From the NCBI GenBank assembly GCA_025356335.1, contig JANXUF010000033.1, positions 1 to 64,000 of the forward strand: 64,000 nucleotides of DNA. The letters run 5' to 3'. The DNA comes from Actinomycetes bacterium (GTDB lineage: Bacteria > Actinomycetota > Acidimicrobiia > Acidimicrobiales > Ilumatobacteraceae). The notes beneath the pieces are model-generated. The model saw nothing but the letters and a program-made list of their open reading frames with translations, made no database searches and had not been told where the DNA came from. Numbering within the stretch: the stretch's first letter is position 1; every line of letters begins with the position of its first letter. A program made the translations under genes and the position numbers. Positions 5,779 to 58,913 of this stretch are shown one piece after another.

Positions 5779-5903
5779 CACTCGCTCGACGATGCCTGTC
5801 GCCGTCACCGGATTTCCGCCCCGCCATCACGGAATCCATGTGACTGCGACGCACGTCGTGGCAAATTTCCGTCCTGTCAGCGTGTTCTGCAAGGGTTGAC
5901 CGA

Positions 5904-19542: not shown

Positions 19543-19577
19543 GGGAGAATGGTCGCGATGAATGCGACCATTCTCCC
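19543..19577. promoter_or_regulatory. Perfect 14-bp-arm palindrome enclosing tetR start codon(s)
   Basis: GGGAGAATGGTCGC-gatgaat-GCGACCATTCTCCC; ATGs at 19549 and 19558 fall in the left arm and loop. Confidence 0.8.
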
Positions 19578-42033: not shown

Positions 42034-42082
42034 GTCGCTGTCGGCAGACGTCGTATTTTGCGCTACTTCTGCCGACAGCGAC
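42034..42082. repeat. 49-nt hairpin element B: 15-bp perfect arms, 19-nt loop
   Basis: GTCGCTGTCGGCAGA-CGTCGTATTTTGCGCTACT-TCTGCCGACAGCGAC, 3' of the tRNA-Arg gene. Confidence 0.9.
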
Positions 42083-42099: not shown

Positions 42100-42175
42100 T
42101 GGCGCCTCCGGAGAGACTCGAACTCCCAACCGACCGGGTAGAAACCGGTTGCTCTATCCATTGAGCTACGGAGGC
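42100..42175 (-). tRNA. tRNA-Arg(UCU), CCA encoded
   Basis: Minus strand GCCTCCGTAGCTCAATGGATAGAGCAACCGGTTTCTACCCGGTCGGTTGGGAGTTCGAGTCTCTCCGGAGGCGCCA; 7-bp acceptor, anticodon stem ACCGG/CCGGT with loop TTTCTAC. Confidence 0.96.
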
Positions 42176-50367: not shown

Positions 50368-50416
50368 GACGCAGGCACGAGAGGTCGCATTTTCTGCAAC
50401 ATCTCGTGCCTGCGTC
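50368..50416. repeat. 49-nt hairpin element A: 15-bp perfect arms, 19-nt loop
   Basis: GACGCAGGCACGAGA-GGTCGCATTTTCTGCAACA-TCTCGTGCCTGCGTC between the ftsK start and the lipoprotein gene stop. Confidence 0.9.
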
Positions 50417-54090: not shown

Positions 54091-54380
54091 GCGCGGTCAC
54101 CCCGCCACCGCGGAATCCACGTGACCACGACACCTGCCGTACCCGCGCGGTCACCCCGACTCCGCCATCGCCCAATCCACGTGACCACGACACCTCCCGT
54201 CCCCGCGCGGTCACCCCGAATCCGCCACTGCGGAATCCACGTGACCACGACACCTCCCGTCCCCGCGCGGTCACCCCGAATCCGCCACTGCGGAATCCAC
54301 GTGACCACGACACCTCCCGTCCCCGCGCGGTCACCCCGACTCCGCCATTGCGGAATCCACGTGACCACGACAACTGCCGC
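54091..54380. repeat. 60-bp tandem repeat, 4 full units plus degenerate and partial flanking units
   Basis: Units 54121-54180, 54181-54240, 54241-54300, 54301-54360; the second and third are identical. Confidence 0.95.
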
Positions 54381-54423: not shown

Positions 54424-57400
54424 TCAGATATGCATCTTGCGCCTCCGTGCGAAGATCAGCAGCAGGAACCCGATGATGCTCAGCGCAACCGCGAAGCGCA
54501 GGGACTGGCCGGAATCGGTTCCGGTCGCCGGGAGTTGCACGGGAGGCGTACCGGTGGTGGCCGGGTTCGGCACTGGCGTTGCGGCGCCAGCAGGCGTTGT
54601 CAGCGGCGTTGTCACGAGGGCCGTTCCGGGCGTCGTCGTGACCGTCGTCGTGACCGTTGAATCGAGGATCACCGTGACGTGGAAAATGGACTGTGCCGTG
54701 TTTCCGGCACCGTCCGTCGCCACGCAGGTGACGGGCGTCGTTCCGACTGGGTAGACGATTCCCGTCGCCGGCGTGCAGGAGACCGTCGGGGCGATGCCTG
54801 AGTTGTCTGCAGCAGCCGGTGCGCCGTAGTTCACGACGATTCCAGCCGGGTCGCTGGTGTGCACAGTGATGTCGGGACGCGAGATCGTCGGGGCCTGATT
54901 GTCGACCACCGTGATGGTGAACGATGCGGAGTCCGCTATGAACGGCTGGTGCTGGACGTTCGGCTGCCGTGCTTCCGTGTTCTCGATCACCAACTCCTGC
55001 TGCTGTGCGCTGTCGATCGCTGTGCAACTGACGACGGTCTGGCCGAGCGGGAAGAAGTCGCCGCTGTTCTTCGTGCAGCTGATGGTCACCGGAGGGATGC
55101 CACCCGTCGACGTCGCCGCTGCAAAGGTGACGACTGCGCCGGCCTGACCAGGATCGTTCGGCACGATCTTGTCCGGCGGGACGGCGATCGTCAACGGCGG
55201 AGTGACCCACGACACGAGATTGTCGGTCGAGGTGGACGCCTGCGAGTTGGTGACCGGCAGGCCGATCGTTTGCGCTGCGCCAGCAGGGATCGAGGCGATG
55301 ACCGTGCCGGACGTCGTCATGCCAGTCACCCGTACCTGAAAGTGGCTGCTGTCGATCGAGGCGATCGAGGCTGACAACGCGCCGCCGGCCGTGCCGGAGA
55401 TGGTCGCATCGCTCGCTTCGACACCGAATCCAATGACAGGTGCCGAGAACACGACGTCGAAGGCGATCGGCGATGTCGAGGTCGGATCTGCCTGGCCGAA
55501 AGCCTGGTTGATCGTGACCGTCGGTGCCGAAGGCGGAGCGGCGATCTGGAAGGTGATCGAGTTGTCCGCCGAAGTCGACGCTGCACTGCCGAGGTGTGGC
55601 AGCGCAACGGCCGTCGTGGCGTTCGCCGGGATCGACACCGTGACATCACCGTTCTGGGTCATTCCGGAGATCGTCACATGTTGGTGCGTGCTGTCGATGA
55701 GCGAAACGCCGATCGTGAACCCTCCGACGGGACCGGCCGTCGAGACAATGGTGAGTTGGTTGAACGGGATGAGATTGATCGCCTGGTCCGACACGATGTC
55801 GAAGCCGAGTGGGGAGATGAACGTCGGGTCTGTCTGCGGCAGTGGCGACTGGTTGATCGTCAACACCGGAGGGGTCGGCTTGTTGAAGGTGACGGAAGCG
55901 AGGTTGGAGGAGAGGTTGCCGAGCAGGCTCGTCGTTCCCGTAGCGAGGCCCGGGCCGACGTTCACCTGCACCGAGCCGCTGGATGGCATTCCCGACACCG
56001 CGACCGTGTAGTGAGCGGCGTCGACGGTCGTCACGGTGGCAGCGTTGGCATTCGCCGATCCGGTGAGGGTGACGTCCGTTTGGTCGAAGCCGGAGACCGC
56101 TTCGGAGAACATCACATCGAAGATGATCGGACTGACCGAGGTCGGGTTCACCTGACCGGGATCGACCGACACCGTCGTCGTCGGAGCGACCGGCACAGGT
56201 TTGTTGAAGGTGACGAGCGCAAGGTTCGACGAGAGGTTGCCGAGCAAGCTTGTCGTTCCGTTAGCGAGGCCCGGGCCGACGTTCACTTGCACCGAGCCAC
56301 TGGCGTTCATCCCGGAGACCGACACGGTGTAGTGCGATGCATCGACCATCGTGACTGTCGTGGCATTGGCAATCGCCGAGCCCGTCAGCGTGACGTCCGA
56401 CTGGTCGAAACCGGTGACTCCCTCGGAGAAGATGACATCGAAGACGATGGGGCTGGCCGACGTCGGATTGGCCTGAAGCAGGTCGACCGACACGGTCGTC
56501 GTCGGTGGTACCGGTGCAGCGGGCTTGATCCACTGCAATGTCGCAGTGTTCGACACCGTATTTGCGAGCCCCGTGGCGATCGATGTCACCGAACCAGCGG
56601 CAACCGTCAGATTGACATTGCCAGAATCCGGCATGCCAGACTCGGCGACCGTGTACCGCGACCCGTCCATCGGAGCCACCTGCGTCACGACAGCAGCATT
56701 CGCGCCGGCACTCCCGACGAACGCCACATCGGCAGTATCGAACGTCGCGACCGGCTCGGAAAACGTCACCAGAAACGTCACCGATGCAGCAGACGAGGGA
56801 TCCGTCGTACCCGGATTCAACGTGACCTGGGCACTCGGTGCTGTGGGCTCGACCCACTGCACGTCATTGTCGGTCGATGACGACGCGGAACTGGTCAGCG
56901 CATTGAACGTTGCATCCTGCGCTGCGGCACCCGGGATCGAGGCGATGACATGACCCTGATCGATCGACATGCCGGTGACATGGACGGTGTAGTGCGAACT
57001 GCTGATCGTCGTAACGGTCGCCGCAAGCGTGCCGGCGGTCGATGCCGACAGATCGACATCAGGTGCGGTGAACCCGACGACGGGCCGGGAGAAGATGACG
57101 TCGAAATCGATCGGCGAGAGCGAGGTCGGATCGGTCTGCGGAGGCGGGGACTGATTGATCGTCACCCTCGGATTCGTCAAGAAGGTGACCGTGTGATCAG
57201 TCGAACTCGACGCGGCATTGACAACAACCGGGACAGCGACCTCGTGGGCGGCTCCAGCAGGGACATCGACGATGACCGTCCCACTCTGGGTCATGCCAGT
57301 CACGGCGATGTCGTACGTCTTGGCATCGACCGGGGTGACGACAGCCGTGGTGGCGCCGGCAGTGCCGAAGAGCGTCACGTCCGAATTTGCGTCGCCGAAG

Positions 57401-58719
57401 CCCTGCATGTCATCGGTGAAAGTCGCTGTGAAATGGATCGGCGAATCCGGCGTCGGGTCGGCCTGAGCGGTCGGCGTCGTCTGCTGGTTCACCGTGACCT
57501 GCGGAACGGTGACGACGAAGTCGACAGACGGTGTCGGCAGCGAGAAACCGAGAGCCGGGGCCTCGACACCGGCCGGGTTGAAGCCCGGCGTATTGGTGAA
57601 GTTGAAGTAGTGGCCCGGTAGTCCGTGGTTGCCGAGGTCGCTGAGGAAGTTAGTCATCGTGCAGGTCCCGGCGGTCGTCGGCGGGTTGAACGTGACAGTG
57701 GAGTAGGCGTTCTTGATATCCCCGAGCGTGCCGATTCCGGCGATCGCCGAGACGTTGTCGGTGCTGGAGACGAGCGGGAGGTTCTTCACCGAATCGGGCA
57801 GGGCATCATAGACCAGGTTGATCACCTGCGTGTCGAGCGCCGGATCGATGTTCGACGGGTCGATACCGCTGAAATTCTTCAGCAGATCCTTGATGTCGGT
57901 GCCGAGATGGAAGTTGCCGCTCGGCGAAACGTCGAAGCTTCCGCAGGTCACCCAGGCGATGAACAACATGTTGCCCTGCTCGGAATGGCTGTTGACATCG
58001 GAGTCATTGGCGTCGAAACCGGGGATGACCTGTGGCTCTCCGGCCCTGACGTTGACGGGGCTCGCCGGGTCGGTCATCGACGGGACACTGTCGAGCGTCG
58101 TGATGCGGATGTCGACCGTCGCCTCGTGGTTTGGGGAGCCCGTATTCGTGCTCTCGTGGCCATCGTCGATACTGCTACTGGTGTTGATGGTCAGTTCGGC
58201 TGGCGTGTCATTGAGGTTCGAGTAGTTCGCAGGTGGCGTGTAGGTCAGCGTGCCGAGCGCAGCGTTCAGCTGATCGTTCGTCCCCTGGAACTGGAGAGCC
58301 TGCTGGCCCCCAACGGGGTCCCCCTGCGTCGACATCCCAGGGTCCATAGTCATTTTCAAGATCCCCGTGGTGACCGCAAGCTGGACGTTCGCGCATCCAC
58401 TGGTCACTTGCGGGGTCGTCGTGAGCGTGCAGTCCCCGTCGGTCGACTTGCTGTCGACCTTGATGTCACGCTTCTGCGGAGCTGCGATCGGGTCAGTGCC
58501 CGCAAAGACGACCGGGACCGGCAGTAGAGGATTCAACCCCGAAGGGTCGCCATATACACGCGGCGGCGAGGTGATGACCGGAACAGCGGCACTGGCACTC
58601 CCGGGATCGAACAGGCCGAGAACGACGGTGGTCGTTGCGAGGAGCAACATGACGACGATGACGCGGAACATCGGTTGGCGACGGTGCTTCGATGCGCCTT
58701 GAGTGGTGAAGTTGCTCAT
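54424..58719 (-). CDS. Large secreted LPXTG-anchored surface protein with Ig-like repeats and two HYR domains
   Basis: Signal peptide MFRVIVVMLLLATTTVVLGLFDPGSASAAVP; repeated ~110-aa modules (xPTSxSPIxFDVxFSxxVxGF...); HYR-like modules; C-terminal VQLPATGTDSGQSLRFAVALSIIGFLLLIFARRRKMHI. Confidence 0.92.
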   Translation of the reverse strand: MSNFTTQGASKHRRQPMFRVIVVMLLLATTTVVLGLFDPGSASAAVPVITSPPRVYGDPSGLNPLLPVPVVFAGTDPIAAPQKRDIKVDSKSTDGDCTLTTTPQVTSGCANVQLAVTTGILKMTMDPGMSTQGDPVGGQQALQFQGTNDQLNAALGTLTYTPPANYSNLNDTPAELTINTSSSIDDGHESTNTGSPNHEATVDIRITTLDSVPSMTDPASPVNVRAGEPQVIPGFDANDSDVNSHSEQGNMLFIAWVTCGSFDVSPSGNFHLGTDIKDLLKNFSGIDPSNIDPALDTQVINLVYDALPDSVKNLPLVSSTDNVSAIAGIGTLGDIKNAYSTVTFNPPTTAGTCTMTNFLSDLGNHGLPGHYFNFTNTPGFNPAGVEAPALGFSLPTPSVDFVVTVPQVTVNQQTTPTAQADPTPDSPIHFTATFTDDMQGFGDANSDVTLFGTAGATTAVVTPVDAKTYDIAVTGMTQSGTVIVDVPAGAAHEVAVPVVVNAASSSTDHTVTFLTNPRVTINQSPPPQTDPTSLSPIDFDVIFSRPVVGFTAPDVDLSASTAGTLAATVTTISSSHYTVHVTGMSIDQGHVIASIPGAAAQDATFNALTSSASSSTDNDVQWVEPTAPSAQVTLNPGTTDPSSAASVTFLVTFSEPVATFDTADVAFVGSAGANAAVVTQVAPMDGSRYTVAESGMPDSGNVNLTVAAGSVTSIATGLANTVSNTATLQWIKPAAPVPPTTTVSVDLLQANPTSASPIVFDVIFSEGVTGFDQSDVTLTGSAIANATTVTMVDASHYTVSVSGMNASGSVQVNVGPGLANGTTSLLGNLSSNLALVTFNKPVPVAPTTTVSVDPGQVNPTSVSPIIFDVMFSEAVSGFDQTDVTLTGSANANAATVTTVDAAHYTVAVSGMPSSGSVQVNVGPGLATGTTSLLGNLSSNLASVTFNKPTPPVLTINQSPLPQTDPTFISPLGFDIVSDQAINLIPFNQLTIVSTAGPVGGFTIGVSLIDSTHQHVTISGMTQNGDVTVSIPANATTAVALPHLGSAASTSADNSITFQIAAPPSAPTVTINQAFGQADPTSTSPIAFDVVFSAPVIGFGVEASDATISGTAGGALSASIASIDSSHFQVRVTGMTTSGTVIASIPAGAAQTIGLPVTNSQASTSTDNLVSWVTPPLTIAVPPDKIVPNDPGQAGAVVTFAAATSTGGIPPVTISCTKNSGDFFPLGQTVVSCTAIDSAQQQELVIENTEARQPNVQHQPFIADSASFTITVVDNQAPTISRPDITVHTSDPAGIVVNYGAPAAADNSGIAPTVSCTPATGIVYPVGTTPVTCVATDGAGNTAQSIFHVTVILDSTVTTTVTTTPGTALVTTPLTTPAGAATPVPNPATTGTPPVQLPATGTDSGQSLRFAVALSIIGFLLLIFARRRKMHI

Positions 58720-58913
58720 GCAAGCAAGGTAAGGAAGGTCGGTACCCGTCGTCATGAGTAGTCGAGTACTCATTTGACCTGCGGCGACGGCGCTCCCGTT
58801 GGCCGCTGATCAGCAAGGTCGATGTTAAGAAGATCATCGGTACAGCGGTCGCCCGAGCAGTGGTCATCGGGTATCCACCCATCGGTGCCGTCGCCATTGG
58901 CCGGCAGTGACCG

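Follow-up and report, generated by a model that had tools for sequence, protein, structure and literature searches.

Introduction

REP elements are short, dispersed and mostly extragenic palindromes that occur in many copies. In the REP–RAYT systems (REPtrons), these palindromes are 20–40 bp long and carry an unpaired GTAG tag. Two inverted REPs of the matching type are described as invariably enclosing a RAYT gene, and most REPs are located downstream of genes (PMC2817692, PMC3733652). Some palindromic repeats have no known enzyme, as a 2013 survey states for the REP-like CGTC repeats, which feature an unpaired tag and stems of 8–9 bp, were reported without a dedicated transposase and are, in that survey, not recorded from Actinobacteria (PMC3733652). 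Inverted repeats are also recognized by AbiEi, a component of the type IV toxin–antitoxin system AbiE (AbiEi/AbiEii): AbiEi antitoxins attach to inverted repeats within the promoters of their own genes, and in S. agalactiae the site bound by AbiEi consists of two inverted repeats of 23 bp with 3 bp between them (PMC7319586). Long targets bound by a dimer are also known from the EDxHD homing endonucleases, whose type member I-Bth0305I dimerizes on a target that measures nearly 60 bp (PMC3943268). DUF559, on the other side, figures among the domains of unknown function, and an annotation as antitoxin is common for AbiEi-like proteins.

Here we describe a palindrome family in a genome of the Ilumatobacteraceae, of which two copies, A and B, were noticed in a 64,000-nt stretch of DNA, i.e. 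the window in what follows. The genome, a draft of 5.57 Mb in 156 contigs, is complete to about 94%, and direct reading covered about a quarter of it. The enzyme linked to these repeats is an AbiEi–DUF559 protein, i.e. one other than Y1/RAYT.

Results

Two palindromes of the window and their genome-wide family

When re-read, copies A and B (table 1) proved to consist of 15+19+15 nt with perfectly complementary arms, just as the sequence-only reading had quoted them; the arms differ at 6 of 15 positions, with all six differences compensated in the opposite arm, and the loops have 13 of 19 positions in common. Both 49-mers fold far better than their shuffled versions (z-scores of -6.4 to -9.5 against 200 shuffles). 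The apparent limit of the arms at 15 bp merely reflects a mismatch at position 16. The proposed shared loop is real in so far as the 13 of 19 matches are concerned, but its ATTTT centre is no feature of the family, since the central 5 nt vary across 46 copies, in which the GTTGCA/TGCAAC-type positions flanking this variable centre are retained. At the Rfam gathering score, the window yielded a tRNA match only, with the hairpins belonging to no Rfam family.

Table 1. Family palindromes in the window and the tRNA gene adjacent to copy B.
Feature	Position	Strand	Context
Copy B, 49-bp palindrome, dialect d2 (GTCGCTGTCGGC)	42034..42082	.	18 nt beyond the tRNA-Arg(TCT) 3' end, upstream of coaBC; same-dialect cognate unit at contig C24
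Copy A, 49-bp palindrome, dialect d1 (GACGCAGGCACG)	50368..50416	.	~31 nt beyond the stop codon of a minus-strand gene, upstream of an ftsK-like gene; same-dialect cognate unit at contig C58
tRNA-Arg(TCT)	42100..42175	-	neighbour of copy B; context only
Weaker 53-nt copy, d8-like	5798..5850	.	d8 is a dialect with a cognate unit at contig C29
Tandem array, 4.6 units of 60 bp, with a d8-type palindrome in each (GGTCACGnGGATTCCG...CGGAATnnnnGTGACC)	54102..54379	.

The clustered layout of the tandem array is like that of some REPs, and its d8 dialect, shared with the weaker copy, is the one that brackets a decayed AbiEi–DUF559 gene at contig C29. Close to this array, a large minus-strand gene (54424-58773), which encodes a surface-type repeat protein, contains two tandem 321-bp units that are 80% alike (55880-56505). 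A further candidate, copy C (19543-19577), the loop of which shows two mismatches, was rejected as a family member: it is a perfect 14-bp palindrome with a 7-nt loop, which extends across the probable start codon of a TetR-type gene and is possibly an operator.

A covariance model built from A and B alone, as the sequence-only reading had suggested, detected about 47 separate sites in the genome (5.57 Mb), almost all with a length of exactly 49 nt; in 60 relatives belonging to the same family or order, it gave no match at E<=0.1. With further models the catalogue grew to 113 copies, 106 of which are either 49 nt (76 copies) or 50 nt (30 copies) long. Most copies show a typical form, i.e. a continuous palindrome of 22 bp, a variable 5 nt and another 22 bp. 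The 46 copies mentioned above can be aligned without gaps, and covariation in this alignment is strong, with 85.3% of cells paired, two-sided changes in 16 of 22 pairs and a covariation score of 0.359, whereas shuffles reached 0.176 and slid partners 0.045-0.112.

By their arms, the copies group into sequence dialects, which include d1 (copy A), d2 (copy B), d3a (CCCGAGTCACG), d3b (CCCGTGTCACCG) and several rarer types, and long arm sequences are common to unlinked copies. The 50-nt palindromes of dialect d3b have conserved 18-bp arms around a variable 14-nt middle; for instance, in the copies L016:11989-12038 and L138:10377-10426 the arms are near-identical and the middle is almost free to vary. 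This variable middle is at odds with plain copying of the whole 50-bp element, which should preserve the middle as well. Single arms (with at most 2 mismatches) occur nearly always within paired palindromes, and both a larger IS ended by these arms and unpaired sites of the uptake type were rejected on these grounds. A scan of the genome collection for the d3 core, with the own genome left out, gave a single, unrelated match. Matches of the model termed R2 in other orders (~1e-4 to 1e-5) were also discarded, since several look like chance similarity in coding sequence; the match in genome G294, however, pointed the way to a genuine relative of the arrangement described below.

Position relative to genes

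According to gene calls made with our own simple coding-potential gene finder, 48 of the 113 copies are located between convergent genes, 47 between codirectional and only 10 between divergent genes, even though divergent gaps comprise about twice as many base pairs as convergent ones. Overlap with a called gene was found for only about 6 of the 113. In codirectional gaps, 35 of 47 copies are closer to the end of the upstream gene (p=0.001), and distances from the stop codon are mostly below 40 nt, mainly 5-40 nt past the stop.

Downstream of the palindromes, T occurs at a frequency of 0.06-0.27 against a background of 0.18, and at least four T in 8 nt were found in only 4 of 124 tails. With T thus at background level, these are not canonical intrinsic terminators. 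Non-Watson–Crick pairs in the sense orientation comprise 36 G-U versus 43 A-C pairs, i.e. there is no G-U bias, which makes the earlier suggestion of selection on a folded nucleic acid less likely; taken together, the lack of a T-tract and of a G-U preference fits poorly with either an ordinary terminator or a folded RNA. The matched arm changes are equally well explained by two half-sites bound by one protein. Direct repeats at the borders, as potential target-site duplications, are as frequent as expected from shuffling; no motif is conserved in the 12 nt outside the palindromes, and the ends are paired, without an unpaired GTAG or CGTC tag.

AbiEi–DUF559 genes bracketed by palindromes of the same dialect

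Some pairs of copies are about 970 bp apart, and the intervening gene is repeatedly the same, encoding a protein of 302-320 residues that matches, weakly but consistently, the Pfam models of AbiEi N-terminal domains and of DUF559. The first four intact units carry the same dialect on both sides, i.e. d2 at C24, d3a at C152, d1 at C58 and d3b at C13, an agreement that random draw would produce in these four classified units with P=0.002. Since they were found via their palindromes, these four units by themselves prove nothing. A genome-wide search with their alignment retrieved three more long paralogs, C78, C71 and C29 (the last with one internal stop), plus fragments, and these three also have palindromes on both sides, again of other dialects. 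Altogether, seven long paralogs are thus bracketed, six of which score in an automated flank test, with C78 failing the cut and being bracketed by eye only. In the four intact units, one palindrome lies about 46-54 nt upstream of the start codon. Among the called neighbours of these four units, a reading of the gene calls revealed no AbiEii gene, and no partner gene was identified for the dialects d4, d5 and d6.

The paralogs are only about 55-62% identical to each other, and hence there is no sign that a whole unit has jumped recently. In the C13 unit (L145:2201-3600) the palindromes are doubled on both sides, with the outer left copy holding about 24 nt of the gene's 3' end, and a remnant at C25 has retained a palindrome and a gene fragment. 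A REP-associated Y1/RAYT transposase, which the sequence-only reading had proposed to look for, did not turn up: this genome has no match to PF01797, in a search whose control worked in other genomes.

The N-terminal part matches AbiEi models in all 29 homologs compared (20-62% identity), and the residues M1, L202, E203, D235, E245, H252 and D261 are invariant among them. These include the EDxHD residues E, D, H and D in the right order (E203, D235, H252, D261). The C-terminal part gave profile matches to the PDB entries 3hrl (E=3e-7) and 3r3p (E=3.3e-6), the latter, labelled a mobile intron protein, being I-Bth0305I.

Bracketing in relatives and in another class

Of the 199 genomes of the phylum that were sampled, 48, i.e. 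about a quarter, contain close AbiEi–DUF559 homologs. An earlier bracketing test, which demanded strong hairpins, missed known units and was replaced by a direct flank comparison: homologs in relatives were collected by protein search, and their left and right flanks were compared, with similarity demanded in both orientations, as palindromes give. At the pre-set cut of 18, 27 of 39 homologs passed as compared with 39 of 289 other genes (p=7e-13). With a cut of 24, which was chosen afterwards, the numbers are 22 of 39 versus 7 of 289 (p=6e-18), and one of these seven controls is itself an AbiEi–DUF559 gene. About 40% of the relatives' homologs are without clearly matching flanks. In these other genomes the palindromes are 41-71 bp long; different paralogs have different palindromes, with a weak trend linking protein and flank similarity (rho 0.22, 0 of 2000 permutations). 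Within the parts sampled, genomes G018 and G294 contain further copies of the palindromes that flank their units, and these palindromes are nearly absent elsewhere.

Tsukamurella, which belongs to another class, shows the same bracketing plus solo copies. In T. tyrosinosolvens NCTC13231, the DUF559 protein WP_068740572.1 is encoded between inverted copies of a 42-bp palindrome, further copies of which are found on other contigs; one of these copies is 8 nt away from each of the two stop codons of a convergent gene pair. A second DUF559 gene (WP_170181047.1), flanked by 65-bp palindromes, was the top scorer among 31 genes. The NCTC13231 contigs used were deposited as plasmids; NZ_LR134454.1, NZ_LR134464.1 and NZ_LR134451.1, named plasmids as well, carry the core genes pks13, serS and nrdF and look like pieces of the chromosome. 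No such brackets were seen around the AbiEi genes of two AbiE operons with AbiEii and around one AbiEi-type gene without a DUF559 label, and viral contigs and phages contained no real homolog. A search of relatives for empty sites found none that was informative.

Y1 transposase genes bracketed by palindromes of their own were observed in relatives (L219, L221, L222 and L223 in G011; L215 in G007), with some of these palindromes being dispersed in the same genome. RAYT-type REPs therefore coexist with DUF559-linked repeats in this bacterial family. Additional genome-specific palindrome families near gene ends were noticed in G018 (L174-L183), G011 (L184-L193) and G015 (L206-L212).

Discussion

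Overall, our data probably reflect a REP-like repeat family that is served by a cognate AbiEi–EDxHD (Vsr/I-Bth0305I-like) nuclease, with each main dialect being matched by a gene that is bracketed by two palindromes of this dialect. One of the two options of the sequence-only reading was that A and B belong to a REP-like mobile hairpin family rather than to ordinary terminators. Its REP-like part is borne out by dispersed copies in dialects, located near gene 3' ends and without a T-tract, and by a gene bracketed by the same palindromes. Movement is a different matter: neither empty sites nor strain polymorphism nor target-site duplications came to light, and the mobility we propose is suggested by analogy and by the matching of dialects.

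How could such a system operate? Two monomers may bind the two half-sites of a palindrome through their AbiEi regions, and the nuclease could then nick or cut at the palindrome or at a target and thereby initiate copying via repair, by which the palindrome, either alone or together with the gene, would be copied into new sites. The new copies would survive mostly just beyond stop codons. With both arms having to fit the same protein, a dimer that reads both arms would bring about matched arm changes without any RNA. The span of 49 bp covered by the S. agalactiae AbiEi sites (23+3+23) equals the commonest element length in our genome, which is suggestive only and not general, with palindromes elsewhere extending over 41-71 bp. 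Whether all this amounts to a second, independent spreading route, in which non-autonomous repeats are copied via break repair by an AbiEi-guided, homing-type EDxHD nuclease, without a transposase and in at least two classes of Actinomycetota, seems to us evenly balanced.

An alternative without any mobility is that the palindromes are operators, i.e. that the AbiEi-like protein represses its own gene via the upstream palindrome, with the dispersed copies representing a regulon or decoys. Promoter binding by AbiEi antitoxins (PMC7319586) and the position of a palindrome shortly ahead of the start codon in the four intact units are in line with this idea, which we nevertheless consider unlikely, because it accounts neither for the second palindrome at the end of the gene nor for dispersed copies that lie past stops instead of in promoters—rarely between divergent genes and, in codirectional gaps, nearer to 3' ends—and would not need a conserved nuclease active site.

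Could the palindromes simply be transcription terminators or mRNA 3'-end stabilizers that selection has kept similar, and which merely insulate the DUF559 genes? Their location shortly past stops, often between convergent genes and in the case of copy B directly after a tRNA, would suit this function, and actinobacterial terminators often lack T-tracts. Yet besides a T-tract the palindromes also lack a G-U bias in the sense orientation, and neither the long arms common to unlinked copies nor the paralog-specific match of left and right dialects would be explained. Moreover, REPs of non-terminator origin are placed likewise (PMC3733652). Altogether, this makes a terminator or stabilizer role quite improbable.

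That we are dealing with ordinary REPs of a RAYT that was lost or is hidden in a sequence gap, with DUF559 genes located between REPs by chance, is very unlikely. RAYT-like genes do occur in the same family, where the Y1 genes of G011 have other palindromes on their flanks, and our genome is an incomplete draft; on the other hand, it has no Y1_Tnp match, a separate dialect for each DUF559 paralog is not expected from landing on common REPs, and bracketing is also seen in genomes without a detected Y1 gene. Finally, a coincidental similarity of A and B, for which one could only cite that their common ATTTT centre is indeed no family feature, has a negligible probability, being excluded by the approximately 47 same-genome places of nearly uniform length that the model of A and B alone retrieved.

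The probable system of palindromes and cognate AbiEi–DUF559 nucleases is analogous to REPtrons in several respects, i.e. dispersed dialect palindromes that mostly lie downstream of genes, two copies that bracket a gene belonging to one family, a dialect tied to the paralog, and clustered copies; the 3' end of the C13 gene captured between repeats also resembles the captured rayt 3' ends of BIMEs (PMC2817692). It is not a member of the REP–RAYT group, however, since AbiEi–DUF559 replaces the HUH/Y1 transposase, for which no gene was found in this genome, and since the palindromes, at about 49 bp, exceed those of REPtrons in length and lack an unpaired tag. Copy A, like the CGTC-tagged REPs, ends in CGTC, but in contrast to the unpaired tag and short stems of the latter (PMC3733652), the ends are paired here and the arms comprise about 22 bp. 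The target-site duplication that is a feature of MITE/TIR DNA transposons is absent. With AbiE, the AbiEi of which binds inverted repeats, our system has the AbiEi-like N-terminal region in common, but it features a C-terminal nuclease domain and palindromes on both sides as well as dispersed ones, whereas the AbiE operons checked are unbracketed. The EDxHD homing endonucleases and Vsr-like nucleases are alike in their C-terminal profile and the retained E, D, H and D residues; in contrast to EDxHD homing endonucleases, the genes described here are found outside of introns or inteins and are tied to many dispersed palindromes rather than to one homing site. In the literature searched, i.e. in titles and abstracts, with most subscription papers outside this scope, we found no report that links DUF559 with palindromes, and our claim of novelty is therefore provisional.

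If each gene serves one palindrome dialect, this would assign a testable function to a protein family that about a quarter of the phylum's sampled genomes contain. Furthermore, it would provide a candidate enzyme for orphan repeats as well as naturally diverged protein–DNA pairs—one protein and dozens of sites per genome—from which a recognition code may become readable. With the spreading route considered above, an antitoxin fold would have been turned into a sequence reader of selfish DNA.
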